A model generated the notes under the pieces. It had not been told where the DNA came from. It made no database searches and saw nothing but the letters and a program-made list of their open reading frames with translations. From contig NZ_JAKSYI010000120.1 in assembly GCF_022829285.1 (NCBI RefSeq), positions 124,001 through 188,000 of the forward strand: 64,000 nt of DNA, written 5' to 3'. This DNA is from Methylobacterium sp. J-078 (GTDB lineage: Bacteria; Pseudomonadota; Alphaproteobacteria; Rhizobiales; Beijerinckiaceae). Of this stretch, positions 5,261 to 27,670 are shown one piece after another. The translations under genes were made by a program, and so were the position numbers. Every line of letters begins with the position of its first letter. The first letter of the stretch is position 1.

Positions 5261-7486
5261 TCAGAACCGGGCCGGGTCGAGCTCGAAGGTCGGCGGCAGG
5301 GCCTCGAACCATTCGCCGTAATAGGGATCGCGGGGGAGCTTTTCCGCCCAGCGATCGCGAAAGCGCTGATGCTCGGCCGGGTCGACGGTGCGGGCGCGGT
5401 TGCGGCTCTCGTAGTGGTAGAGGCTCGCCTGGGCGCAGTAGACGCTGCGCAGGCCCCGCTCCCGCAGCCGCAGGCAGAGGTCGACGTCGTTGTAGTTGAC
5501 GGCAAAGCCCTCGTCGAACCCAGCCACGGCCTCGAACTCGGCTCGCCGCACCATCAGGCAGGCACCGGTCACCGCGAGGTAGTTGCGATTGCCGACGGTG
5601 GAGAAATAGTGCCCCGGATCGTCGCCGGGATATCCGCGCCGGACATGGTCGGGCGTCGCGTCAACGATCGAGACGCCGGCATGCTGGATCTCGCCGGTCT
5701 CGAAGAGGAGCTTCGGCGCAACCGCGCCGACGCCGGGGATCTGGAGCTGTGCCAGCAGCGCCTCGATCCAGTCGGGGCTGATCACAGCGATGTCGTCGTT
5801 GAGGAAAACCAGCACCTCGCCGCGCGCAGTGGCCGCGCCGAGATTCATCTTGGCGGCCACGTTGAAGACCGGCTCCGACCAGGTCACGCGTTGGGCGCCG
5901 TGCCGCTCGATGGCCGCCAGCGTATCGGGCCGCAGGTCGCCGTTGTCGACCACCACGAACTCGATGGGGGCGTAGGTGCTGAGAGCGGCGACGCTGTCGA
6001 GGCAGGCGGCCAGGAGATCGACCGTGCGGCCGCCGACGATGCTGTCGCGGCCGGCACTCGGGATGACGATGGAGACGAGGGGGCGGTCGGTCAGCTTGCG
6101 CCGCAACGCGAAGCAGCCCTTGAAGGCGCTGGAGCGGGCGAAGTCGAGTTCGCCCGTGCGCCGGGCTCGATCCTCCAGGCCGCGGATCGCCGCCGCGATG
6201 ACGTAGTCCTTGTTGTCCATCGTCTGGGCGGTGGAGCCGGGGATCGCGCGCCAGTGATAGAGCACCTTCGGCACGTGGACGACGTTGCGCACGTGCTCGG
6301 TGTAGCGCAGGGCGAAGTCGTAATCCTGCGCGCCGTTGCATTCGTCGCGAAAACCGCCGATCCGCGCGACGATGTCCATGCGGTAGAGCGCCAAGTGCGC
6401 CGTATACATGCAGGCCTCGAGGGCCTCGGGCGACCAGTCCGGCTTGAAGAACGGCTCGTAGCGCACCCCGTCGATCGTGAGTTTGTCCTCGTCCGAATAG
6501 ATGAAGTCGACGCTCTCGTCGGCGTTCAGGATCCGGACGAACTCGAAGAGCGCGTTGTCTGGGATCGCGTCGTCGTGGTCCATCAGGGTCATGTAGCGGC
6601 CGGTGGCCAGCGCCATGGCGTCGTTCGATGCAGCGGAGATCCGGCCGTTGCTCCGGCGGCGGTGGAGCTTGATCCGGGGATCGGCCGCCGCGTAGGCTTG
6701 GAGCATCGGCCAGACATGCGGCGCCGACGAGTTGTCGTCGCAGAGGCAGAGTTCCCAATCCTCGTAGGCCTGCGCCTGCACCGACGCGATGGCCGCCTCG
6801 AGCCAGCGCTTCGGCGTATCGTAGACCGGCAGGATGATGGAGATGCGCGGCCGGAACGGATAACCGGCGATCTCGGCGCGCATCGCCGCGACCGAGAGGC
6901 GGGCGGGCGTCTCCACGGTCTCGATCCAGGCCATGTAGGACGCCGGCACCGGCCGCGGCCGGGCGCTTGCGAAGAAGTCCTGCCAGAGTGCGGCGAGCCC
7001 CCGCCCACGGGCGAGCGCCTTGACGCGAGCGAGGAGCGGACCCGGCCGGCGTTCGGCCACCGGCAGGCGCGCAAGGAGACGGCGCGCGATCTCCGCTACC
7101 GCGCCGATGCGGCCCAGGTAAGTCAACTCGACATGGCCGAGGCGGAACCGGCCGAGGCCGCTCAGGGGATCGAGGCGCAGGCCTCGGACGCGGCGCGGCA
7201 GCCGCACCAGGTTGTCGATGCCGTTCGCATCGAGCTCGAGGGGAACGGTCAGGGTCTCGCGAAAGCCCTTGCCGTCATCGACGTAAAGCAGGGGCGTCAG
7301 CTTCGCCCGGTCGAGGGCCGTGAGGTCGGCCCGCAGGCGCACCCAGCCGCCGCGATGGCGCTTGCGGCCCTGCGGCGGCCAGAGGCGGAAGTTCGGGTCG
7401 GTGCCCGTCGCACGCCACGTGTCGGGTGCCCCGTCCGCCTCGATCTGGCTGGCGGGGTCGAGACGGCAGCGAAGGGTGCGACGCAA
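5261..7486 (-). CDS. Two-domain family 2 glycosyltransferase
   Basis: A 741-residue protein with two GT-A fold glycosyltransferase family 2 domains in tandem. An uncharacterised N-terminal part (about 1-185) is followed by domain 1 from ISIILPVYDTP with the acidic motif MDHDDAIP, and domain 2 from VSIVIPSAGRD with the acidic motif FLNDDIAV and a late DVDLCLRLRERG acceptor/catalytic segment. Such proteins extend surface polysaccharides or the rhamnan/O-antigen part of LPS. The start is a TTG at 7486, preceded by GAGAGGA at a spacing of about eight. No sugar-nucleotide synthesis genes are adjacent; the flippase and GNAT genes at 12.6-15.2 kb may belong to the same envelope pathway. Confidence 0.86.
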   Translation of the reverse strand: MRRTLRCRLDPASQIEADGAPDTWRATGTDPNFRLWPPQGRKRHRGGWVRLRADLTALDRAKLTPLLYVDDGKGFRETLTVPLELDANGIDNLVRLPRRVRGLRLDPLSGLGRFRLGHVELTYLGRIGAVAEIARRLLARLPVAERRPGPLLARVKALARGRGLAALWQDFFASARPRPVPASYMAWIETVETPARLSVAAMRAEIAGYPFRPRISIILPVYDTPKRWLEAAIASVQAQAYEDWELCLCDDNSSAPHVWPMLQAYAAADPRIKLHRRRSNGRISAASNDAMALATGRYMTLMDHDDAIPDNALFEFVRILNADESVDFIYSDEDKLTIDGVRYEPFFKPDWSPEALEACMYTAHLALYRMDIVARIGGFRDECNGAQDYDFALRYTEHVRNVVHVPKVLYHWRAIPGSTAQTMDNKDYVIAAAIRGLEDRARRTGELDFARSSAFKGCFALRRKLTDRPLVSIVIPSAGRDSIVGGRTVDLLAACLDSVAALSTYAPIEFVVVDNGDLRPDTLAAIERHGAQRVTWSEPVFNVAAKMNLGAATARGEVLVFLNDDIAVISPDWIEALLAQLQIPGVGAVAPKLLFETGEIQHAGVSIVDATPDHVRRGYPGDDPGHYFSTVGNRNYLAVTGACLMVRRAEFEAVAGFDEGFAVNYNDVDLCLRLRERGLRSVYCAQASLYHYESRNRARTVDPAEHQRFRDRWAEKLPRDPYYGEWFEALPPTFELDPARF

Positions 7487-7600
7487 ACCCGGATCCTCTC
7501 GGGGGCCGGCGCGCGCGGGGCGCGGCCCGTCGGCAGGTCGCCGGACCCGCCGCGGCGAGGTTTAGGGCAAGCCCGCTTCCCCCCGCAAGACCGGAGCGCG

Positions 7601-9406
7601 TCAGGCTTGATTGGCGGCGAGGTAGGCGCGCCAGCCACCATGGTGGGTGATCTCCGGGGCGCCCGCCACCGCGTGCGCCTCGCACAGAAAGCCGGAAGCC
7701 GTCTCGCCATCGGCCAGGGTGATCTTGCCGATGCCGAGGGGAGCGGGAATCGCGGCGGCGAAGCGCCCGAAGCTCGCCGGATCGAGGCTCCAGACCTCGA
7801 CTTCAAGGCCCGGCCCGGCATGGCCGGGCTCGCGCACGAGGCCGGGTTTGGCCGGCACCGTGCCGGGCAGGGCGAAGAGGCGGTAATCGGACGCCGTGCG
7901 GGTGGCTCGGAGGAAGCGTGCGCCGAGGTCCTGGAGCTGGTGGTTGAGGGCGAGGCCCGTGAGATGGGCGCCCACCACCACGAGGGATATCCCATCGGCC
8001 TCGGCCCCCGGCACCCGGCTCGCCTCCGGCAGGGCGGCGGCCCGGTCGAGCCCCATGCCACCGCCGAGCGCGCGGTGCAGGGCGTCGGCCCAGGGGGCCA
8101 GGGCCTCGTCCGTGAAGGCCGGCGCCACCAGCATCACGCCCGCCGGCAGCCCGTCCCGGCGAAACCCGGCCGGGACCGCGATGGCGGCCATGCCCAGCAG
8201 GTTGGCGAAGTTCGTGTAGCGCCCGAAATGGCTGTTGCGGAGAATGGGTTCGGCCTGCATCTCGGCCACCGAATAGGTGGTGGGCGACGTAGGCAGCAGC
8301 AGCACGTCGAGCCCGGCCAGGATCGCGTCTGTGCGGCGCTTGCACGCCTCGAAGGCATAGCGCCCCTTGAACGCGTCGACGGCGCTGTAGCCCCTGGCGG
8401 ATTCGACGATGGCGCGAACGCTCGGGTCCATCGCCCCCGCGTGATCGGCGTGGAACGTCTCGATGGCCGCCAGCCGCTCGGCCACCCAGGGGCCGTCGTA
8501 GAGCAGGGCCGCGATCTCCCGGAACGGGGCGTAGTCGAACGGCACCGCCACGCCGCCGAGGCTCTCAAGGCGCGCGATGGCGGCGTCGTAGAGCGCTTCC
8601 GTCTCGGCATCGCCGTAAAATTCGCGCTCGTCGGGTGCCAGGACGCCGAAGCGCAGACCGGTGGCGGGCAGCGCCCGCGGAATCGGTATCCGCGAATAGG
8701 GATCGGCGGGGTCGAACCCCTCCGCCACCCGCCGCACCGCGGTGCCATCGCCCACCGTGGCGGCGAAGACCGTGATGCAGTCGAGGCTGCGGCAGGCGGG
8801 GACGAGACCGGTCGTGCTGAGCGCCCCGGGGGTCGGCTTGATGCCCACGATGTTGTTGAAGGCCGCCGGCACGCGGCCGGACCCGGCCGTGTCGGTGCCG
8901 AGGCTGAAGCAGGCGAGCCCGGCCGCCACCGCCACGGCCGAACCGGAACTCGACCCACCGGAGACGTACTCGGCGCTGAACACGCTGCGCGGCGCTCCGT
9001 AGGGCGAGCGCGTACCGTTAAGGCCGGTGGCGAACTGATCGAGGTTGGTCTTGCCCGTCACGAGGGCACCCGCCGCCTTGAGGCGCGCCACCACGGCGGC
9101 GTCCGCCTCGGGCGTGTAGGCGAAGGCCGGGCAGGCGGCGGTTGTGGGCAGGCCCGCCACGTCGATGTTGTCCTTGACCGCGAAGGGCAGGCCCCAGAGC
9201 GGCAGCGAGTTCGGCTCCGGATGGCGCTCCATGAGGTCGCGGGCCGCCGCGACCAGGTCGTCGTGCGCCACCGCCGTGATGAAGATCGCCGGATCGGCCG
9301 AAGTCGCCATGCGCTCCGCGACGATGCCGGCGACGACGATGGGGTCCAATTCGCGGGACGCGTAGGCTTCGCGCAGGGTCGCGGCATCGAGGATGGTGGG
9401 CAGCAT
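7601..9406 (-). CDS. atzF: Allophanate hydrolase
   Basis: Amidase-signature enzyme that hydrolyses allophanate to ammonia and carbon dioxide, the second step of urea carboxylation or the last of s-triazine degradation. The Ser-Ser-Lys triad is visible: Lys78 in FAVKDN, Ser152 in VSGGSSSGS and Ser176 in TDTAGSG, each 13 residues before the numbering reported for Pseudomonas AtzF. The C-terminal 160 residues form the extra allophanate-hydrolase domain, so this is not a plain amidase. Start ATG 9406 is preceded by GAGGAG at good spacing; the upstream in-frame extension is Arg-rich and rejected. Length is 601 residues, as in the family. No urea carboxylase or cyanuric-acid gene is nearby; ureD lies 178 bases upstream on the same strand. 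Confidence 0.93.
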   Translation of the reverse strand: MLPTILDAATLREAYASRELDPIVVAGIVAERMATSADPAIFITAVAHDDLVAAARDLMERHPEPNSLPLWGLPFAVKDNIDVAGLPTTAACPAFAYTPEADAAVVARLKAAGALVTGKTNLDQFATGLNGTRSPYGAPRSVFSAEYVSGGSSSGSAVAVAAGLACFSLGTDTAGSGRVPAAFNNIVGIKPTPGALSTTGLVPACRSLDCITVFAATVGDGTAVRRVAEGFDPADPYSRIPIPRALPATGLRFGVLAPDEREFYGDAETEALYDAAIARLESLGGVAVPFDYAPFREIAALLYDGPWVAERLAAIETFHADHAGAMDPSVRAIVESARGYSAVDAFKGRYAFEACKRRTDAILAGLDVLLLPTSPTTYSVAEMQAEPILRNSHFGRYTNFANLLGMAAIAVPAGFRRDGLPAGVMLVAPAFTDEALAPWADALHRALGGGMGLDRAAALPEASRVPGAEADGISLVVVGAHLTGLALNHQLQDLGARFLRATRTASDYRLFALPGTVPAKPGLVREPGHAGPGLEVEVWSLDPASFGRFAAAIPAPLGIGKITLADGETASGFLCEAHAVAGAPEITHHGGWRAYLAANQA

Positions 9407-9584
9407 CGGTTCGGGTCTCCTCGATCGGCGCGACGGGGTCTTTCGCGCGCGGCATGTGACCCGCGGCGGCGAAACACGCCCGGGGTTTGAATCGTCCGAG
9501 TGCCGGCGAGGGCGCCCCTGCGACCGAGATTGCATCCTCCGTGCCGACGCGCCCGCAAGCCGCGCGATGGGCCTTCCGACACCC

Positions 9585-10493
9585 TCAGGCCTGCCAGACC
9601 CGAGGGAGCGGCTGCCCGCGATAGGCGGTCAGGAGGCGCTGCGCCAGCATCCGCAGGGCATCCGGGTCGGTGCCCAGGCACCGCACGACGAGGTGGCCGT
9701 TCCAGGCGGAGGCCGCCGCCGCGACACCGTCCAGCGCCACGTCGTCGAGGATCGCGCGGGCCTGCTCCAGGCGGCCCTCCGCCTCGGGAGAGACGTCGAG
9801 CAGGGTCGCCATGGCTCGGGCGCCTCCGCCGATCGCCGCGCGCGCGAGTTGCACCGAGAGATCGCCGTCGAGGCGCACGGAATCCGCGTAGACCAGTCGC
9901 CCGCCGCGCCGGATGCGCCAGATGTCGGTGAGGTGGCCCCGCGTGATCGGCTCTTGGCGCGCCGTGCGCCCGAACGTGACGGCCTCAAAAGCGAGGAGCC
10001 GCGCATCCGGCGCCAGATCCGCCGAGAATTGCCGTTCCAGGGCGGCCTGATCGAACAGGATCGTCTCCTGCGGCAGGAAGGCGAGGCGGGCTCCGGCCGC
10101 GAGGGTGGCGCACGTCGTCAGGCGGCTCACCGGACCATCGGATCGGTAGATCTTCTCGGCCGCCGTCGTCGTCAGGACGAGGTCGGCGCCGGCTCCGACC
10201 TCGACCGTGACGCCGAACGTGTCCCCGCAGGCGATGCCCCCGGCGGTGTTGAGAAGGACGGCCTCGCAGGGTCCCCTCGGGCGACGTGGCAGGCGCAGGC
10301 GGGCGGGGCCTGCCTCGGCGATGTCGCGGATGCGGGTGTCGTGGCCGTCCGCGCAGTCGACGCTCAGGTGGATGCGCCCGCGCGAGCGCTGGCGCTCAGG
10401 CGCCGCGACGCGCGGAGGCGGGCGGTCCGGATCAAGCAAGGCGGGGCTTAAGCCGCACCGGTCGCCACGGGACGGGCGGGATCGGCCCCCCAT
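9585..10493 (-). CDS. ureD: Urease accessory protein UreD
   Basis: UreD (UreH) is the scaffold that binds apo-urease and recruits UreF and UreG for nickel insertion. Family segments are clear: ARLRLPR, LLNTAGGIACGDTF, TTAAEKIYRS, LPQETILFDQA and a LVYADSVRLDG stretch. The protein is 302 residues from the ATG at 10493, which overlaps the 3' end of sseA by 46 bases and has no good ribosome-binding site; a TTG at 10439, nine bases after the sseA stop, would give 284 residues and fits the family better. No ureABC, ureE, ureF or ureG lies within the window, so it is an orphan here, between sseA and allophanate hydrolase. Confidence 0.86.
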   Translation of the reverse strand: MGGRSRPSRGDRCGLSPALLDPDRPPPRVAAPERQRSRGRIHLSVDCADGHDTRIRDIAEAGPARLRLPRRPRGPCEAVLLNTAGGIACGDTFGVTVEVGAGADLVLTTTAAEKIYRSDGPVSRLTTCATLAAGARLAFLPQETILFDQAALERQFSADLAPDARLLAFEAVTFGRTARQEPITRGHLTDIWRIRRGGRLVYADSVRLDGDLSVQLARAAIGGGARAMATLLDVSPEAEGRLEQARAILDDVALDGVAAAASAWNGHLVVRCLGTDPDALRMLAQRLLTAYRGQPLPRVWQA

Positions 10494-17492: not shown

Positions 17493-17749
17493 AGCGGACG
17501 GAGAGCGGACCGTGATCGCATGAGCCCGCGAGGTCTGCCGGCGCGGCCGCATGGCGGCCTGTCGCTCGCCGAATGTCAGAGCGCCCCGGGATTGAGGCGC
17601 AGGGCTTCGTTGACCATTCCATCCAAGCCGCACGATGCGCCCGCAACGCTTTCGGCCGCTCGTGCGTTTGCTGCGACCGGGTTCGAGTTGCGAACGGATT
17701 TCGCGCGGGCACGGATATCGAACTCGACAGATTTCAAGGAGTTGAGAAC

Positions 17750-18043
17750 GTGCTGAGGAAACTCGTGCTGGCCGCGCTGCTGGCCTTAGGCTTCGCCGCG
17801 ATGGCACCCCAGGGCGCTTCGGCCGCCCCGATCGGCCCCGCCCTCGCCCTTCAGAGCGAGGCAGCCCCGGCCGCCGTGCAAAATGTGCAGTATTACGGCT
17901 ACCGCCGCCGCTTCTACGGCCCGCGCCGTTTCTATGGCCCGCGTCCCTTCTACGGCCGTCGCTACTACGGCCCGCGCCGCTTCTACGGCCCGCGTCCCTA
18001 TTACGGTCGTCGCTTCTACGGCCCGCGTCGCTTCTACTACTAA
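17750..18043 (+). CDS. Exported Tyr/Arg/Gly/Pro-repeat protein
   Basis: A 97-residue protein starting at a GTG (17750) with an excellent AAGGAG site eight bases upstream. Residues 1-25 are a Sec signal peptide (LRKLVLAALLALGFAAMAP, ending GASAAP). After a short linker the mature chain is two 17-residue units of the form RR(F/Y)YGPRRFYGPRP(F/Y)YG and a partial third ending RRFYY. The mature protein is very basic and tyrosine-rich with no Cys, like Tyr/Gly-rich coat or matrix peptides. Upstream in-frame codons (from 17573) are not coding. Function unknown; a cell-surface, nucleic-acid-binding or cross-linkable role is only a guess. Confidence 0.76.
   Translation: MLRKLVLAALLALGFAAMAPQGASAAPIGPALALQSEAAPAAVQNVQYYGYRRRFYGPRRFYGPRPFYGRRYYGPRRFYGPRPYYGRRFYGPRRFYY
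17906..18040 (+). repeat. 51-bp tandem repeats (2.6 copies) in the exported protein
   Basis: Two full 51-base units (17906-17956 and 17957-18007) and 33 bases of a third (18008-18040). The units differ mostly at synonymous or Phe/Tyr-swapping positions, which suggests duplication followed by selection on the peptide. Confidence 0.85.
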
Positions 18044-18868: not shown

Positions 18869-20017
18869 TCAGGCGTTGGGCGCGGCCACCTTCTGGCGCA
18901 GGCCCGTGATCACCGCCTTCAGGATGTCGGCGTCGGAATCGCTGCTGCCCATGGAACGCACGGTCTCGATGCGCTCGTGCACGAAGGAGAGCTTGGCGAT
19001 CACCGCCGGCGTCAGCTTGAACGGGAACAGGGCCGGCTGGCCCATGCTGCGGCTGAGCGAATTGACCGCGTAGGTCAGGGGCAGCCACGCCTCGACGATC
19101 TTGCTGAAATCGGTGGTCCGGTAGGGATCGAAGTCGATCACCACCGGCTCGGCCGGGCCGTGGCGCAGGCGCGGGCGCACATGCATCTCGAAGGTGCTGG
19201 CGGTCTCCAGGGTATCGACGATGTGGAGGTACTGCGCCCAGGTCTCGGCAAAATCCTCCCACGGGTGTGCCGTGGCGTAGGCGCTGACGTAGCTCTCCTC
19301 CCAGTCCGCCGGCGCTCCTTGCGCGTAGTGGCGCTGGAGCGCGCCCGAATAGTTCAGCCGCTCGTCACCGAACAGCGAGCGGAAGGTCCAGAGGCTCTGG
19401 TCGAAGCGCACCAGAACGTTCCAGAAATAGTGCCCGATCTCGTGCCGGAAGTGGCCCAGCAGGGTGCGGTAATACTCGCCGAACAGCATCCGCCGGCGCT
19501 CGCGCTCGACGTCGTCGGCCTCGGCGATGTTCAGGGTGATGAGGCCGCTGCGGTGACCCGTCAGCACCGGCGGGCCGATCTGGTAGCTCTCGGACGGATC
19601 GACCAGGAAATCGAAGGCGAGGCCCGTGGCCGGGTTCTCGTCCCGGGTCATCAGCGGCAGGTCGAGGCGCAGGAGCGAGTAGAACAGGCGGTGCTTGGCC
19701 GCCTCGATCTGGCGCCAGCGCGTCAGGTTCCAGGCGATCGAGAGGTCCGGCACCACGTGGTTGTGCCGGCAGGTGACGCAGTAGCGGTTCGGGGAATCCT
19801 CCGGCACCAGCCAGTTGCAGGCGTCGTAATGGGCATTGGCGCAGAAGCGGTAGCGCCGTGCCGGGTTGGCATAGGCGTGCCAGACCTGGCCCACGGGCTC
19901 CAGGGCCGACATCTCGTGGATGTCGCAGACGTAGCCGAGCCGCCGCTGACAGCTCTCGCAATGCGTGCTCTCGAAGCTAATCGGCTGGTCACAGGCCTGG
20001 CACTGGAAGATCTTCAT
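18869..20017 (-). CDS. Zinc-ribbon zinc metallopeptidase (DUF2248-type)
   Basis: A 381-residue predicted soluble protein. Its N-terminal zinc ribbon has Cys6, Cys9, Cys20 and Cys23, with further Cys pairs in RFCANAHYDACNW and RYCVTCRHN (residues ~60-90). The catalytic HExxH is HEIGH at 192-196 in GHFRHEIGHYFWN, with acidic residues downstream (HPWEDFAETWAQYLH) suitable as third ligand and transition-state support. This matches the putative zinc-binding metallopeptidases known only by DUF number. Start ATG 20017 is taken over the upstream ATG (20047) because the ribbon begins at once. It is divergent from the transglutaminase/ATP-grasp operon, a neighbourhood that suggests a shared process. 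Confidence 0.8.
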   Translation of the reverse strand: MKIFQCQACDQPISFESTHCESCQRRLGYVCDIHEMSALEPVGQVWHAYANPARRYRFCANAHYDACNWLVPEDSPNRYCVTCRHNHVVPDLSIAWNLTRWRQIEAAKHRLFYSLLRLDLPLMTRDENPATGLAFDFLVDPSESYQIGPPVLTGHRSGLITLNIAEADDVERERRRMLFGEYYRTLLGHFRHEIGHYFWNVLVRFDQSLWTFRSLFGDERLNYSGALQRHYAQGAPADWEESYVSAYATAHPWEDFAETWAQYLHIVDTLETASTFEMHVRPRLRHGPAEPVVIDFDPYRTTDFSKIVEAWLPLTYAVNSLSRSMGQPALFPFKLTPAVIAKLSFVHERIETVRSMGSSDSDADILKAVITGLRQKVAAPNA

Positions 20018-20368
20018 GAACCCGTCGCGGGACGCCTCGCCTGTCACATCCAGCGTCGCACGCTGCCCGTGAAGGAACCGTCATAGCGGATCGGCGCGCT
20101 TGCCGGTGGCAAAGCATGCGCAACACGCGAAGTTCCGGACGCCGCTCGCCCGGCGTGCATCGAACGCCCGATGCACGAAACTTGCAAGCCCACCGGCCGG
20201 GCGCGCCCTCGTCGACGCCGCCTCGCGAAGGCCATCGCACATGGGTCCGTGTTCGCGTATGTCATAGCGAAGCTTCCTCCGGGACACCGCAGGGCGGTGC
20301 CCCGTCCCTCCGCCGCCGATGCGCGTCCGCCGCGCCCGGCGCCCTGTCCAGATACAGCGGGAGCCCCC
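20018..20368. other. Divergent intergenic region, metallopeptidase / transglutaminase
   Basis: A 351-base gap between two divergent genes. It must hold promoters for both, but I see no convincing -35/-10 pair, operator or hairpin. The open frames running through it on both strands look like GC-driven extensions of the flanking genes. Confidence 0.5.
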
Positions 20369-23300
20369 GTGTCGATCAAAGCCGCCCTGCACCACGTCAC
20401 GCACTACACCTACGACCGGCCGATTTCCCTCGGCCCGCAGGTGATCCGGCTGCGCCCGGCGCCGCACACGCGCACCGCCGTGCCGGCCTACTCGCTGAAG
20501 GTGCTGCCCGAGAATCACTTCATCAACTGGCAGCAGGACCCGAACGGTAACTGGCTGGCCCGGCTGGTGTTTCCCGAGAAGACATCCGAACTGAAGATCG
20601 AGGTCGATCTCATCGCCGACATGTCGGTGATCAACCCGTTCGACTTCTTCGTGGAGGAGTATGCCCAGACCCGGGGCTTTTCCTACGCGGACGACCTCAC
20701 CGCCGAGCTGAAGCCCTACCTCGTCCTCGACGACGCCATGTCGCCGGAAGTCGACGCCTTCCTGGAGCGGCTGCCGGCCGAGACGAACACCGTGCTGTTC
20801 CTGGTGGCGCTCAACGCCCAGGTGGCGGGGGAGATCACCTACGGCGTGCGCATGGAGCCCGGCGTCCAGAGTGCGGCCGAGACCCTGACGCTGAAGAGCG
20901 GCTCCTGCCGCGACTCGGCCTGGCTCATGGTGCAGATCCTGCGCCGGCTCGGCATGGCCGCCCGCTTCGTCTCGGGCTACCTGATCCAGCTCATCCCAGA
21001 CACCACCGCGGTGGACGGCCCCGCCGGCACCAGCACGGACTTCACCGACCTGCACGCCTGGGCCGAGGTCTACCTCCCCGGCGCCGGCTGGATCGGCCTC
21101 GACGCCACCTCCGGCCTCCTCTGCGGCGAGGGCCACATTCCACTGGCCGCGACCCCGCACTACGCCTCCGCCGCGCCGATCGCGGGTCTCGCCGAGCCGG
21201 CCGAGGTCACGTTCGGCTTCGAGATGTCGGTGACCCGCGTGGCGGAAGCGCCCCGCATCACCAAGCCGTTCTCCGAGGAGGTCTGGGCGGCGATGGACGC
21301 GCTCGGCGAGCGCATCGATGCGGATCTCGCGGCACAGGACGTTCGCCTGACCATGGGCGGCGAGCCGACCTTCGTCTCCGTCGACGATTTCGAATCGGCC
21401 GAATGGAACGCAGCCGCCGTGGGCCCGACCAAGCGGGGCCTCGCCGACAAGCTCATCCGGCGCCTGCGCACCCGGTTCGCGCCGGGCGGCATGCTGCATT
21501 ACGGCCAGGGCAAGTGGTATCCGGGCGAGAGCCTGCCGCGCTGGGCCTTCGCCCTGTACTGGCGCCGGGACGGGGTGCCGGTCTGGAAGGATTCCGACCT
21601 GATCGCGCCGGAGGATGGCCCGCGCAACGCCACCATCCACAAGGCCAAGGACCTCATCGACGGCGTCGCCAAGCGCCTTGGCCTCGGCGCCTACGTGTTC
21701 CCGGCCTTCGAGGACCCGGTCTACTGGACCGAGAAGCGCGACGACCTGCCCGTCAACGTCACCACCGCCGAGCCGCACTACCCGAACCCCGAGGCCAATG
21801 CCCGGATGGCGCGGGTGTTCGAGCGGGGCCTGGGCGAGGCCGCCGGCTACGCGCTACCGCTGGCGAGCCTGCCCACCGGTAAGGACGGCGATGCCGAGCG
21901 GGTCTGGATCTCCGAGCCCTGGGAATTCCGGCGCGGCCACGCCTTCCTCACGCCCGGCGACTCGCCGGTGGGCTACCGCCTGCCCCTGTCCTCGCTGCCC
22001 TACGTCCCGCCGGAGCACTACCCCTACTACCAGCCCCAGGACACCCTGGAGGAGCGGCCGGCCCTGCCCGAGGGCCATCCCGGCACGGAGACCGTCAACG
22101 GCTCGGGCGTCACCGGCGTCGCCGTGCGCACGGCCTTCGCGGTGGAGCCGCGCAACGGCATCCTGCACGTCTTCATGCCGCCGCTGCAGCGGGTGGACGA
22201 GTACCTCGAACTCTTGAGCCACCTGGAGGCGGCGGCCGCCGAGCTGAAGCAGACCCTGCACATCGAGGGCTACGAGCCGCCCTTCGACCCGCGCCTCAGC
22301 GTCATCAAAGTCACGCCCGATCCCGGCGTGATCGAGGTCAACGTGCACCCGGCCCCGTCCTGGCGGGAGGCCGTGCGGATCACCACGGACCTCTACGAGG
22401 ATGCCCGCCAGACCCGCCTCGGCGCGCAGAAATTCATGACCGACGGGCGCCACACCGGGACCGGGGGCGGCAACCACGTGGTTCTGGGCGGCGCCACGCC
22501 GAACGATTCGCCGTTCCTGCGCCGGCCCGATCTCCTCAAGAGCCTCGTGCTGTACTGGCAGCGCCACCCGGCGATGTCCTACCTGTTCGCCGGTCTCTAT
22601 ATCGGCCCGACGAGCCAGGCCCCGCGCATGGACGAGGCGCGCCACGACGGTCTCTACGAACTCGAGATCGCGATGGCGCAGGTGCCCCGGCCCGACGCGC
22701 CCAACATCCCGCGCTGGCTCGTGGACCGCATCTTCCGCAACATCCTCGTGGACGTGACGGGCAACACCCACCGCTCCGAGATCTGCATCGACAAGCTCTA
22801 CTCGCCGGACGGCCCCACGGGCCGCCTCGGACTCCTCGAGTTCCGCTCGTTCGAGATGCCGCCGGACCCGCGCATGAGCCTCGCGCAGCAACTCCTGCTG
22901 CGCGCCATCGTCGCCTGGCTCTGGCGCGAACCGCAGGAGGGCGGCTGTGTCCGCTGGGGCACGGGCCTGCACGATCGCTTCATGCTGCCGCACTTCCTGT
23001 GGGCCGATTTCCTCGGCGTGCTGGAAGACCTCCGGGGGGCCGGCTACGACTTCGACCCGGCGGCCTTCGTGGCGCAGCGCGAGTTCCGCTTCCCCGTCTT
23101 CGGGACGGTGGAGCAGGGCGGCGTGAAGCTCGAACTCCGCCAAGCCCTCGAGCCCTGGCACGTGCTGGGCGAGGAGGGCGCGATCGGGGGAACCGTGCGC
23201 TACGTGGATTCGTCTGTGGAGCGGCTGCAAGTGAAGGTCGAGGGCTACGTGCCCGGCCGACACATCATTTCCTGCAACGGCCGGCGCCTGCCCATGACCG

Positions 23301-23668
23301 GCACCGGAACCTCGGGCGAGGCGGTGGCGGGCCTGCGCTTCAAGGCCTGGCAGCCGGCCTCCTCGCTGCACCCGACGATTCCCGCGCACTCGCCGCTGAC
23401 CATCGACATCCTGGACGCCTGGAGCGGCCGGTCGCTGGGCGGCTGCCGCTACCACGTCAGCCATCCGGGCGGGCGCAACTACGAGACCTTCCCGGTCAAC
23501 ACCTACGAAGCGGAGGGGCGGCGCCTCGCCCGCTTCCAGCCGCACGGCCACACCGCCGGCCCGGTCGCGATGCCGGTGGAAGAGTTGAACCGGGAGTTCC
23601 CGATGACCCTCGACCTGCGCACACCCGTGCCCCCGGGCTACACGCCCCCGGGCGCGACCGCGCCATGA
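20369..23668 (+). CDS. Transglutaminase-like protease with DUF2126 domain
   Basis: A 1099-residue protein. Residues ~1-100 are the bacterial transglutaminase N-terminal beta domain ([23 protein letters not shown]). The transglutaminase core has a full triad: Cys180 in SGSCRDSAW, His229 in DLHAWAEVY and Asp245 in IGLDATSG. After ~residue 290 comes the large DUF2126 domain (conserved [52 protein letters not shown]). The core more often acts as a peptidase than a cross-linker in bacteria; DUF2126 has no known activity. Start GTG 20369 directly precedes the conserved N-terminus. No signal peptide, so cytoplasmic. The stop overlaps the next start by ATGA. Confidence 0.9.
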
Positions 23669-26184
23669 CCGAAGCGGCCGCAGGGGAGGTTCAGGGACGG
23701 GCCGAGCGCCTCGCGCGCTGGACCTCCGCCTACCGGCCGCAGGCAGGGGTGCCGGACGAGTTCATGGATGCGGACGGCCGGCCCAAGGGTGCGTGGCCGC
23801 GCTTCCTCGACCGCCTCGGCGACCTCGACGAACTGGAGATCGGCGCCCGCTTCGTCTCGGCGGTGCGGCGCATCCGCGACACCGGCATCTCCTACCGGAT
23901 CTACGGCGACAAGCGCGAACATGCCTGGCCGCTGGGGTCGCTGCCCCTCGTCATCGAGCAGGACGACTGGGAGACCCTGAGCGCCGGCATCGTCGAGCGC
24001 GCCGGACTGATGGAATCCATCCTCGCCGACATCTACGGCGACGGGCACCTCGTGGCGCAGGGGCTGCTGCCGGCCGCCGCCGTGGCGGGCAGCCCCGAAT
24101 TCATGCGCCCCCTCGTCGGGGTCACGCCGCCCGGCGGACGCTTCCTCAAGCTCTACGCCGCCGACGTCACCCGCGGCCCCGACGGGCGCTGGCGGGTACT
24201 GGCCGACCGCACCCAATCCCCCTCCGGGCCCGGCTACGCCCTGGAGAACCGCCTCGTCCTCACCCGCGCCTTCCCGGACCTGCACGCCGACCTGCAGGTG
24301 GAACGCCTCGCGGCCTTCTTCCAGGCCTTTCGCGATGGCCTCGCCGTGGGGGCCGAGCGCAGCGACCCGCGCATCTGCCTGCTCACCTCCGGGGTGTTCA
24401 GCTCGACCTACGTGGAGCAGGCCGCGCTCGCGCGCTACCTCGGCCTGCTCCTGGTGGAGGGCGACGACCTCGTGATGCAGGACGGAGCCCTGCACATCCG
24501 CACGGTGTCGGGTCTCAAGCGGGCGGACGTGCTCTGGCGGCGCATCGATTCCGACTACATCGACCCCCTCGAACTCAACCCGGCCTCGCGCCTCGGCGTG
24601 CCCGGCCTCGTGGAGGCCCTGCGCAACGGCAGCCTCGTCGTCGGCAACATGCCGGGCTCGGGCATCCTCGAATCCGGTGCGCTGGCCGCCTATCTGCCGA
24701 ACATCGCCCGGCACCTCCTCGAGCGGGACCTTCGCCTCGCCGGCCCGAAGACCTGGTGGTGCGGCGATCCGGACGCCCTGGCGGAGGTCCGCGACAACCT
24801 CGGCGCCTTGAGCCTGCGCCCGGTGGCGACGCCGCCGAAGGGCGCCGTCCGGGACGCGATCCTGGCGCCCCACGCCCTCGATGCCGAGCGGGACCGGCTC
24901 CTCGCCGCCCTGCGCGACCGGCCCTTCGACTACGTCGCCCAGGAAACCATGCCGCTGGCCACCATGCCGGCCTGGGACCGGACGGGCGGCGCCTTACGAC
25001 TGGTGCCGCGCCCCTTCGTGCTGCGGGTCTTCGCGGCGGCCACGCCCGAGGGCTGGCGCGTCATGCCGGGCGGGTTCTGCCGCATCTCGGAGCGGCCCGA
25101 CGTCGAACCTCTGGAGATGCGGGCCGGCATCAAGTCGGCCGATGTCTGGATCCTGTCGCGCGATCCCGTCGAGGCGGTCTCGCTGATCCAGCCCGGCTCG
25201 GCCCGGGTGCGCCGCATCGCCGGGCACCTGCCGTCCCGGGCCGCCGACAACCTGTTCTGGTTTGGGCGCTACGTGGAGCGGGCGGAGGCGGTGATCCGTC
25301 TCGTCGTCGCGCATCTCGGCAGCGTCGGCTCGGCCGTGATCGCCGACATGGCGGGCGACGCCAAGGCGCCGACGGCGCTTCGCATCCGCGCGCTCCTCGA
25401 CGAGTGGGGGGCCATCGAGGCGCCCGACCTGCCCACCGCCACCCTGGCGCAGCAGGCGCTGAGCGGGCGCGACGCCTACGGCTCGGCCCTGCGCCACAGC
25501 CTGTCGGCCCGGGCCAACGCCGCCACCCTGCGTGAGCGCCTCTCGGGCGAGGCGTGGCGGGCGCTTGCCGACCTCCGGGATCTCCTCGAGATCGACGCGA
25601 CCCAGGCCCTGCCCGAGGCTCAGCTGCTCGGCCTGGCGGAGCGGGCCCTGAGCCACATCGCGGCCCTGTCCGGCCTCGCGCAGGAGAACATGAACCGCAC
25701 GGCCGGCTGGCACTTCGTCGATCTCGGCCGGCGCATTGAGCGGGCGATCAACACTCTCAGCTTCGCGACGCGCTTCGTCGGCGACGGCGCCACGGCGGAG
25801 GATCTCGGCGTGATGCTGTCGCTCTGCGACGCCCACGTCTCCTTCGGCGCGCGCTACCTCCAGGGCGTCGCCCTCGATCCCGTGCGCGACATGGTGCTGC
25901 TCGATCCGTTCAACCCGCGCTCGGTGGCCTTTCAGGTGGAGGCGATCGCCCAGCATCTGAGCCAGTTGCCGGTGCTGCGGGCCGACGGCCTCCCCGAGCC
26001 GCACCAGCGCCTCGCCTCCCGGCTCGCGGCGGAGTTCGCCACCGGCGAGGCGGCGGAGTTCGACGGTGCGGCCCTGACACGCCTGGAGAACGAGGTGGAA
26101 CGCCTCGCCGACGCCATCGCGACCCGCTACTTTCCCAACGGACCGCACGCCCTGCGCCCGGAAAAGCTCGTGGGACTCGCGTGA
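23665..26184 (+). CDS. Circularly permuted ATP-grasp / alpha-E fusion protein
   Basis: An 839-residue fusion. Residues ~60-490 are a circularly permuted type-2 ATP-grasp domain (formerly DUF404/DUF407), with conserved stretches [51 protein letters not shown] and a late ISERPD...[11 protein letters not shown]. Residues ~520-835 are an alpha-helical alpha-E domain (formerly DUF403), starting [21 protein letters not shown]-grasp enzymes form carbon-nitrogen peptide-like bonds; alpha-E is predicted to assist. In many bacteria the two domains are separate neighbouring genes; here they are one chain. ATGA overlap with the gene before and GTGA overlap with the gene after imply coupled translation. 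Confidence 0.9.
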
Positions 26185-27098
26185 TCTACACGCTGCGCCA
26201 CCTCACCACCTACCGCTACACGCGGCCCGTGCGCTTCGCGCGCTGCGCCCTGCGCCTGCGGCCCCGCGACGGCGAGGGCCAGACGGTGCTGGAGAGCGCC
26301 CTGACCATCAGCCCCGATCCGAGTCTGCGCGTGGTCCGGCGCGACTATTTCGGCCTCGACGTGGTCTCGGTGACGATCGACGCGCCTCATACCGAGTTGC
26401 GGGTCGAGGCCCTCTCGCGGGTCCGCGTGGAGCGCGATCCGCTGCCCGCGCCCGAATCCGGTCCGGCCTGGGAGATGGTGCGCGACCGGGCGGTAACCGG
26501 GCGGGGGCTCGACCCCGACCGGCCGGTACATTTCCAGTTCCCCAGCGTGCGCGTACCCCTGGTGCCGGCGGTGACGGACTACGCCCGGGCGAGCTTTCCC
26601 CCCGGCCGCAGCGCCTATGGCGGGGCCGTCGATCTGATGCGCCGCATCCGCGCCGATTTCACCTTCGATTCCAAGGCCACCACCGTCCACACGCCGCTGG
26701 CCGAGGCCTTCGCCCTGCGGGCCGGCGTCTGCCAGGACTTCACCCACATCATGATCGCGGGGCTCCGCGGCCTCGGACTGCCGGCGGCCTACGTGAGCGG
26801 CTACCTGCGCACGATTCCTCCGGCGGGGCGGCCGCGCCTGCGCGGGGCCGATGCCAGCCACGCCTGGGTCTCGGTCTGGTGCGGGGAGGGCTGGATCGGC
26901 CTCGACCCCACCAACGGCATCGGCATGTGTGACGACCACATCGTCGTGGCGCGGGGACGCGACTACACCGACGTCTCGCCCATCGACGGCATCGTCTCCG
27001 CCTCAGGCCCGCAGAAGCTCAAGGTCGAGGTCGACGTGGTGCCGGACGGGGAACCGATGCCCGAGCATACGGAGACCGCGCTCGCCGCATCGACCTGA
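26181..27098 (+). CDS. Transglutaminase-like cysteine peptidase
   Basis: A 305-residue protein starting at GTG 26181, whose first bases overlap the previous stop (GTGA). The N-terminal beta domain (YTLRHLTTYRYTRPVRFARC) is followed by a papain-like transglutaminase core with triad Cys184 (RAGVCQDFTH), His227 (DASHAWVSVW) and Asp242 (IGLDPTNG). No signal peptide is seen. It is the last gene of the three-gene operon, and differs from the first by lacking DUF2126. The most likely activity is hydrolysis or transfer at amide bonds; the substrate is unknown. It converges with mntR, whose stop lies 14 bases on. Confidence 0.9.
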   Translation: MIYTLRHLTTYRYTRPVRFARCALRLRPRDGEGQTVLESALTISPDPSLRVVRRDYFGLDVVSVTIDAPHTELRVEALSRVRVERDPLPAPESGPAWEMVRDRAVTGRGLDPDRPVHFQFPSVRVPLVPAVTDYARASFPPGRSAYGGAVDLMRRIRADFTFDSKATTVHTPLAEAFALRAGVCQDFTHIMIAGLRGLGLPAAYVSGYLRTIPPAGRPRLRGADASHAWVSVWCGEGWIGLDPTNGIGMCDDHIVVARGRDYTDVSPIDGIVSASGPQKLKVEVDVVPDGEPMPEHTETALAAST

Positions 27099-27112: not shown

Positions 27113-27565
27113 TCAGCCCATCCGCTCGGTGAAGAGCCGGAACGCTTCCAACGTCTCGGCACTGACATGGTGCTCGATGCCCTCGGCATCGCGGCGGGCG
27201 ATCTCGGGCCTGACGCCGAGGGCGCACAGGAACTGCTCGACGATGCGGTGACGCTCGCGGCTCTGCACGGCCAGGGCCTGGCCCGCCTCGGTGAGGAACA
27301 CGCCCCGGTAGGGCCGCTGCTGCACGAGGCCGTCCTCGGCCAGGCGCTTGAGCATCTTGGCAACCGTGGGCTGGGCGACCCCGAGCCGGGCCGCGATGTC
27401 GACCTGACGGGCCTCGCCGCCGTCGCCGATCAGGTCGGCGATCAACTCGACGTAGTCTTCCACGAGTTCGAGGCGGCGTGCCTCGCGGGCCTGCCGGAAG
27501 CTCTCCACGTGGACGTCGGGATCGACGAGGGCCGTATCGGGCGCGGAGGATGTCGAATCCTGCAT
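27113..27565 (-). CDS. mntR: Manganese-responsive DtxR/MntR-family regulator
   Basis: A 150-residue DtxR-family regulator. The winged helix is near residues 50-85 ([38 protein letters not shown]), followed by a metal-binding dimerisation domain with [14 protein letters not shown], then [10 protein letters not shown] with the Glu and His pair used as metal ligands. There is no C-terminal SH3-like FeoA domain, which fits MntR more than DtxR/IdeR. ATG 27565 is preferred over the upstream start as the extension is Arg/Gly-rich. In this order such proteins usually repress mntH when Mn(II) is replete; no transporter is in the window, so the target is unlinked. Confidence 0.87.
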
Positions 27566-27670
27566 CTGGCCGGCGAACTCCCCCGTTCGGCGCGCACCGG
27601 AACGGCGCCCGAGCCGGGTTGTACCCAAGCGCGGCCCCGGATGGGAGCCCCCCGGCGCGCGAAAGCCGGA

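Follow-up and report, generated by a model that had tools for sequence, protein, structure and literature searches.

We analysed a 64,000-nucleotide stretch of DNA from Methylobacterium sp. J-078 (positions 124001-188000 of contig NZ_JAKSYI010000120.1, in a genome of 5.5 Mb), hereafter called the window. It carries a run of three co-directional genes at 20369-27098 and a divergent fourth gene beside them. The three genes encode a transglutaminase-fold protein with a DUF2126 domain (TD), a fusion of an ATP-grasp and an Alpha-E domain (AE), and a stand-alone transglutaminase-fold protein (T); the fourth encodes a Peptidase_Mx protein (Mx). In gene orders, A denotes a stand-alone circularly permuted (CP) ATP-grasp and E a stand-alone alpha-E. 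Our reading, to which we give a probability of about 0.62, is that this locus constitutes the DUF2126 module (TD-AE-T, plus an optional Mx) of a predicted bacterial peptide-ligase/peptidase system, and that this module includes a pseudo-ligase. DUF2126 would use ATP to couple a carboxylate with an amine, and the two transglutaminase-fold domains would hydrolyse or transfer the same kind of amide bond. The ATP-grasp of AE, presumably dead, would together with alpha-E bind substrate or partner enzymes instead of ligating. An intact ATP-grasp/alpha-E/transglutaminase/Anbu set elsewhere in the genome would provide a second ligase and the proteolytic end, and Mx would be an accessory peptidase. Judging from other species, the pathway would serve nitrogen limitation.

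Apparent loss of the ATP-grasp active site in AE

An earlier, sequence-only reading of this DNA had recognised a permuted ATP-grasp and an alpha-E domain in one protein and had taken the fusion to be the ligating enzyme. Pfam agreed on both domains, but the residues taken as the active site are missing and the ligating role was not borne out. The Glu, Asn and Lys of the site (the E+N+K set) occurred together in all 70 stand-alone A proteins (65/65 distinct ones) versus 0 of 119 distinct AE proteins, and after clustering at 70% identity in 28/28 A versus 0/54 AE. Taken singly, the Asn was kept in none of the 119 AE proteins, the Gly-Gly pair of the loop in one, and a later Asn in one. The stand-alone paralogue of the same genome (locus L003) has the segments VKEVNGSGGYG and NSSQGGGTKD, and both are replaced in the AE of the window. 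Two apparent stand-alone exceptions, L021 (cut at a contig end) and L026 (a split open reading frame, ORF), were counted as AE, both here and in the tree described next.

A phylogenetic tree separated AE (115 sequences) from A (68 sequences) in a clean bipartition with support 1.0. In the structural model of AE, residues 27-498 matched glutathione/glutathionylspermidine synthetase-like folds (3n6x, 2io7-2io9 and 2hgs; Z 19-41). The best match, 3n6x, reached Z 40.8 with 440 residues aligned; for glutathione synthetases, Z was about 22-23. The predicted local distance difference test (pLDDT) score fell below 50 at residues 391-399, inside the lost loop. For the alpha-E part of the model, only helical membrane-protein look-alikes were found (Z of about 10).

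As far as the alignments tell, the ATP-grasp of AE looks catalytically dead and may be called a pseudo-ligase. Even so, AE is being maintained by selection-like conservation rather than decaying, because the Asp between the Glu and Asn positions, an acidic residue further upstream, the Arg of an LR motif (119/119) and a DR-x-QAPSG-x-GYALENR segment (R 92/105, Q 95/105, G 105/105) are all conserved in it. The alignment behind the 105-protein counts leaves out three short ATP-grasp matches (L135, L121 and L038). It shows no conservation of the Lys/Gly-rich loop region among AE proteins.

DUF2126 as a candidate ligase

The domain inventory of the sequence-only reading agreed with Pfam except that it overlooked DUF2126, which makes up most of TD. 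We consider this domain to be the likelier ATP-dependent ligase of the window operon, compared with the ATP-grasp of AE. The DUF2126 protein was modelled with AlphaFold2 from an alignment of 65 sequences, with a mean pLDDT of 83.2. Its first 295 residues matched a transglutaminase-like enzyme (3isr, Z 22.4). All listed structural neighbours that aligned to about residues 296-924 were either glutamine synthetases or their relative GmaS (Z 8.4-9.8, aligned lengths 207-285 residues), and the other listed rows aligned to the transglutaminase part. On the basis of this model, a glutamine-synthetase-type fold is likely for DUF2126.

Fourteen charged or polar residues, picked from conserved motifs because they are conserved, were each present in 65/65 sequences: E332, K382, E387, E448, D449, E656, N658, H703, R753, D755, E756, E804, E824 and R826. 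H695, which is not one of the fourteen, was found in 62/65. Core conservation of this degree would be expected of a working enzyme.

A second locus, gene linkage and co-occurrence

Our search of the same genome found one more alpha-E gene, on contig C12 (locus L003, C12:106000-122000). There, at about 5400-9640 on the minus strand of the locus, an intact stand-alone CP ATP-grasp and an alpha-E are encoded together with two further proteins, one transglutaminase-fold and one proteasome-like. The last of these matched Pfam Proteasome with E 1e-4 and 22.2 bits (cut-off 22.4). We take it to be Anbu, a name that comes mainly from gene order and from background on such operons.

Two sets of TD loci were compared. 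The first comprised the best 80 of 592 confirmed matches, which are as a result near relatives, plus the window, giving 81; the second comprised 40 regions hand-chosen from 63 genomes with DUF2126. AE lay directly downstream of TD in 70 of the 81 loci, elsewhere in one, and was absent from the stretch in four (L026 being a split ORF), while six loci were not assessable. Of the 40 regions, 25 had AE directly downstream and 11 had it elsewhere, while four had none (L117, L118, L119 and L145); for L145, an AE-T pair was present on another contig (L167). With AE directly downstream in 70 of the 75 assessable loci and in 25/40 regions, the genes are not single and unlinked as a rule, in agreement with the linked set that had been proposed from the sequence alone. 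The 40 regions also contained a stand-alone A in 25 and Mx in six, and A and AE were in the same stretch in 23. Anbu shared a stretch with TD in 1/75 assessable loci and in 9/40 regions, and is thus optional in the neighbourhood of TD.

A different arrangement was seen at L117, L118 and L119, where DUF2126 stands beside Anbu. L117 and L118 also have stand-alone A, E and T, with no fused AE in the stretch. This arrangement may be an older form of the system, or a reduced one.

In a survey of a single set of 200 genomes from the phylum, we found DUF2126 in 63, CP ATP-grasp in 116, Anbu in 69 and Peptidase_Mx in 29. All 63 genomes with DUF2126 had a CP ATP-grasp, 35 had Anbu and 19 had Mx; 68 of the 69 Anbu genomes had a CP ATP-grasp and 35 had DUF2126. 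Among the matches listed, 36 genomes had a copy of the ATP-grasp of fused length (an open frame of at least 803 amino acids served as the proxy), and each of them had at least two ATP-grasp matches; many other genomes had a single one of stand-alone length. AE therefore appears to need A, and A does not need AE. A possible exception is the single-match genome G149 (E 1e-113, 74% complete).

Whole cassettes were identified in three other organisms. An IncFII plasmid of Enterobacter roggenkampii (NZ_CP116251.1, 3162-12395) has A-E-TD-AE-T in a row; its A is intact, and its AE keeps the Lys and is without the Glu and Asn. Caballeronia sp. M1242 has A-E-Mx-TD-AE-T, and a replicon of Burkholderia cenocepacia (L169) has A-E-T-TD-AE-T. 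Because of these cassettes, the two loci of the window genome likely serve one pathway. The same 20-kb stretch of the Enterobacter plasmid also carries arsC and an IS26-family transposase gene.

Other phyla were sampled via plasmid matches only; in this sample, plasmids of Paenibacillus, Tsukamurella and Deinococcus carried an intact A and E of the stand-alone kind, and the stretches retrieved held no AE. Rv2566-Rv2569c of M. tuberculosis may be the same gene set.

Transglutaminase triads and the metallopeptidase

Both transglutaminase triads named in the sequence-only reading were found exactly as it gave them, Cys180/His229/Asp245 in TD and Cys184/His227/Asp242 in T. The first was complete in 121/121 TD proteins, the window included. 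The second was complete in 111/112 stand-alone T relatives of either module, a count that was not deduplicated and from which 21 short transglutaminase matches had been dropped; the exception was L045. With such conservation, the triads are not a chance feature.

The divergent zinc metallopeptidase was likewise supported by Pfam. Mx has an N-terminal Zn-ribbon and a putative zinc metallopeptidase domain, with HEIGH at residue 192 as its HExxH motif. The motif was missing from 4/26 Mx ORFs, three of which lie on cut stretches (L085, L086 and L097) and the fourth at L059. One of the 22 reported matches (L150) was spurious. The sequence-only reading had counted the metallopeptidase as part of the cluster; it does stand divergently beside TD, but the genome counts given above make it an optional partner of the DUF2126 module. 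At L163 and L164, Peptidase_Mx is beside Anbu and a stand-alone ATP-grasp, in genomes with no DUF2126 match, so Mx associates with both modules.

Nitrogen control

Published data, cited here from excerpts of the papers, connect related clusters with nitrogen. In B. cenocepacia H111, cluster I35_5080-83 is NtrC- and sigma-54-dependent and includes a 'transglutaminase-like' protein and a 'large protein containing transglutaminase-like domain' (PMC5491218). Its order would fit the A-E-T-TD part of L169, where we found a near-consensus sigma-54 site (21/22) before A. In Pseudomonas putida, PP_2686-PP_2688 are up under nitrogen limitation (PMC7801951), and PP_2685 and PP_2688 are higher on nitrate than on ammonium (PMC8050072). 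In marine metagenome networks, these domains associate with urea metabolism (PMC3597751).

We scanned twice for a general sigma-54 consensus. In the first scan, of both strands of 120 upstream regions, best scores averaged 17.2, versus 16.5 for shuffles; the best site of the window scored 17.5 in it, which is chance level (17.1). A stricter scan of the coding strand found sigma-54-like sites before 15/54 stand-alone A genes versus 0.36 expected, in a sample (L084-L153) that counts some genes twice, L084-L113 overlapping L114-L153, so that the 15/54 are not fully independent. This excess before A agrees with the published NtrC control. Scores of at least 20 were found before Mx in 1/23 cases (0.02 expected). 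It is mainly for the A module that nitrogen control is seen; to the window module it would extend only by association. A sigma-54 promoter of the window operon itself was considered and rejected on its chance-level scores, and we do not claim nitrogen control for that operon.

In Caballeronia sp. SBC2 (L170), Mx (ending at 6388) and TD (starting at 6419) are divergent as in the window, and near-consensus sigma-54 sites scoring 21/22 and 20/22 point in both directions.

Layout of the locus

The three co-directional genes overlap by 4 bases at each junction, as the sequence-only reading had it (ATGA at 23665-23668 between TD and AE, GTGA at 26181-26184 between AE and T); that reading expected a fixed stoichiometry from these overlaps. 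Most homologues of TD align from its GTG start. The nearest kin of the DUF2126 protein among named genomes were Methylobacterium and Methylorubrum, as found by a genome contig search. The features are collected in Table 1.

Table 1. Genes, domains and replaced sites of the DUF2126 locus in the window
Feature	Position	Strand	Description
Mx	18869-20017	-	382 amino acids from ATG; divergent; Zn_ribbon_DZR_6 (PF10005, E 3e-29) and Peptidase_Mx (PF15887, E 1e-104), Pfam
Intergenic gap Mx/TD	20018-20368	.	351 bp, between divergent genes
TD	20369-23668	+	1099 amino acids, GTG start; Bact_transglu_N, Transglut_core and DUF2126, Pfam
DUF2126 domain	21194-23620	+	TD residues 276-1084 (809 residues); 1272 bits; Pfam name 'putative amidoligase'
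AE	23665-26184	+	839 amino acids; CP_ATPgrasp_2 (PF14403, E 8e-129) and Alpha-E (PF04168, E 2e-63), Pfam
ATP-grasp domain of AE	23944-25086	+	residues 94-474; predicted pseudo-ligase
Lost ExN site in AE	24202-24210	+	Ala180-Asp181-Arg182 replacing Glu-Asp-Asn
Lost Lys and Gly-rich loop site in AE	24808-24864	+	residues 382-400
Alpha-E helical domain of AE	25228-26133	+	residues 522-823
T	26181-27098	+	305 amino acids, GTG start; Bact_transglu_N and Transglut_core, Pfam

An NCBIfam search at E 0.001 gave no match for any of TD, AE, T and Mx, and no Anbu match was found in the window between 10001 and 40000. To the gap between Mx and TD, the only sizeable DNA matches covered 61 bp adjoining the TD start, at L007 (77% identical) and L150 (75% identical).

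Seven flanking ORFs of the window were searched in Pfam. Two had no match; among the products of the others are a DEAD-box helicase, a protein of the iron-dependent-repressor family, a LysR regulator and pyruvate-dehydrogenase E1-type proteins. The regulator of the iron-dependent repressor family (27113-27628, minus strand; Fe_dep_repress and Fe_dep_repr_C) has its 3' end 14 bp past the operon, on the opposite strand. A small ORF at 17573-18043 on the plus strand, with no Pfam match, has C-terminal near-tandem repeats of the type RRFYGPRPFYGRRYYG.

Counter-evidence and alternative explanations

Several observations weigh against our reading of the locus. The ATP-grasp site of AE is partly retained, with the loop Lys in 8/119 proteins, the Glu in 2/119, the later Lys (of the TKD motif) in 27/119 and the Asp between Glu and Asn in 113/119; the acidic residue further upstream is there in 119/119 (Asp in 87, Glu in 32). 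That the Glu, Asn and Lys of ATP-grasp are metal and ATP ligands is our assumption, carried over from glutathione and glutathionylspermidine synthetases. We know of no activity for DUF2126, and its match to glutamine synthetase is modest (Z below 10, 8-14% identity, best Foldseek E 0.055). The gene set is not obligatory, since some stretches have TD and lack AE, and others (L157, L159-L161, L166 and L171) have AE-T and lack DUF2126; the genomes of L159, L160, L161 and L166 are outside the 63 that have DUF2126. As to nitrogen, sigma-54 scores of at least 20 were found before TD in only 2/79 and 0/40 cases (0.38 and 0.20 expected), and no convincing site precedes the window operon, TD and Mx scoring 15 each in the stricter scan. 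The excerpted reports add that the Anbu gene PP_2685 was up only 1.12-fold in wild-type P. putida (PMC7801951) and that a pull-down with the Yersinia Anbu-operon proteins gave no specific interaction (PMC6376114).

A more far-reaching version of our reading can be put forward tentatively, at clearly less than even odds. In this version, AE would be a clade-wide pseudo-ligase, a subunit that holds substrate for, or regulates, two real ligases: the stand-alone ATP-grasp and DUF2126. Ligase, alpha-E, amidoligase-peptidase, pseudo-ligase and peptidase would together form one mobile machine for peptide conjugation during nitrogen starvation, present as a single plasmid cassette in Enterobacter and split over two loci here.

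The system might alternatively scavenge nitrogen instead of tagging. The glutamine-synthetase-like domain would then glutamylate amines or small peptides. Ammonia or amino acids would be released by the cysteine and zinc peptidases. This explanation agrees with the NtrC/sigma-54 control of related clusters (PMC5491218, PMC7801951) and with the link of these domains to urea metabolism (PMC3597751), as given in the excerpts. However, the Pfam search of the seven flanking ORFs revealed no amine oxidase, transporter or nitrogen-compound catabolic enzyme, and our scans of the window gave no sigma-54 site. We regard it as unlikely.

Lower still, we would place the explanation that AE is an enzyme with a new chemistry, in which the DR-x-QAPSG-x-GYALENR segment has replaced the old site, as in atypical ATP-grasp proteins that work by a different route. 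The strong conservation of this replaced motif is not expected from plain decay. No new nucleotide site is evident, however, as the Lys/Gly-rich loop is unconserved in AE and poorly ordered in its model.

The model of the sequence-only reading, in which the ATP-grasp of AE is an active ligase that builds a peptide tag for the transglutaminase-fold proteins to trim, is now very improbable. In its favour, the fold of AE is intact, its site retains some acidic residues, and an Anbu-operon ATP-grasp releases phosphate from ATP (PMC6376114). But the enzyme assayed there is, by its description in the excerpted text, of the stand-alone kind, and the fused kind is without the E+N+K set in 119/119 proteins and without the loop Gly-Gly in 118/119. 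A graspetide-like ribosomal-peptide cluster, in which the ligases would crosslink a small precursor as ATP-grasp fold enzymes are known from their family to do elsewhere, is hardly credible, since inspection by eye of the gap upstream of TD in 12 Methylobacterium-group loci (at most 6 ORFs per locus) found no conserved small ORF and the ORF after the last gene is only 14 bp away from it.

Significance

The system is widespread, as seen from the counts for DUF2126, CP ATP-grasp and Anbu among the 200 genomes, and no substrate is named in the literature that we found. The published assays found concern an Anbu-operon ATP-grasp and Anbu (PMC6376114, from the excerpt). Our result points ligation tests to DUF2126, and for AE it points to tests of binding to the intact ligase rather than of catalysis. 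The five-gene plasmid cassette offers a compact unit for reconstitution.

Comparison with known systems

Iyer et al. 2009 reportedly predicted a peptide-tagging or peptide-synthesis system composed of a CP ATP-grasp, a glutamine-synthetase-like ligase, alpha-E, a transglutaminase-fold peptidase and the N-terminal nucleophile (NTN) peptidase Anbu. The window locus and its relatives have the same domain set and neighbourhoods. In the window, we found a CP ATP-grasp and alpha-E in one fused gene, intact transglutaminase triads and DUF2126; the genome differs in that the system is split over two loci and the fused ATP-grasp appears dead. The idea of a conserved unit that makes and breaks peptide-like bonds, which the sequence-only reading had proposed, is supported, and a comparable system had already been predicted in print. 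The prediction is cited as such in the excerpts of PMC6376114, PMC5666114 and PMC3597751.

We regard the window locus as a member of this already predicted system. Our literature search on DUF2126, COG numbers and an inactive ATP-grasp with alpha-E or Anbu, which covered titles and the starts of abstracts and did not reach Iyer et al. 2009, found no prior report of a dead ATP-grasp; the pseudo-ligase status of AE is not claimed as unpublished.

The Anbu operon consists of ATP-grasp, alpha-E, transglutaminase and Anbu (excerpts of PMC6376114 and PMC5666114), and L003 has the same arrangement. Its ATP-grasp, alpha-E and transglutaminase are paralogous to those of the window, and L003 is a full copy within the window genome. 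The window module differs from it by DUF2126, the fused and degenerate ATP-grasp-alpha-E protein, the metallopeptidase, and by having no Anbu match.

Compared with the glutathione/glutathionylspermidine synthetase-like ATP-grasp enzymes, AE shares the fold but is without the Glu, Asn, Lys and Gly-rich loop of its intact paralogues. Glutamine synthetase is the best structural neighbour of the DUF2126 part; DUF2126 is much longer, is fused to a transglutaminase domain and has the low identity given above.

RimK/RimB and RloABC of Pseudomonas, in which an ATP-grasp occurs with a retropepsin and an inactive transglutaminase, share the logic of pairing a ligase with a peptidase (PMC12239564). They belong to another ATP-grasp subfamily and use another peptidase, and alpha-E and DUF2126 are not described in the excerpt of that source. 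According to the same excerpt, RloB is an inactive enzyme of its set, a parallel to the presumed state of AE.

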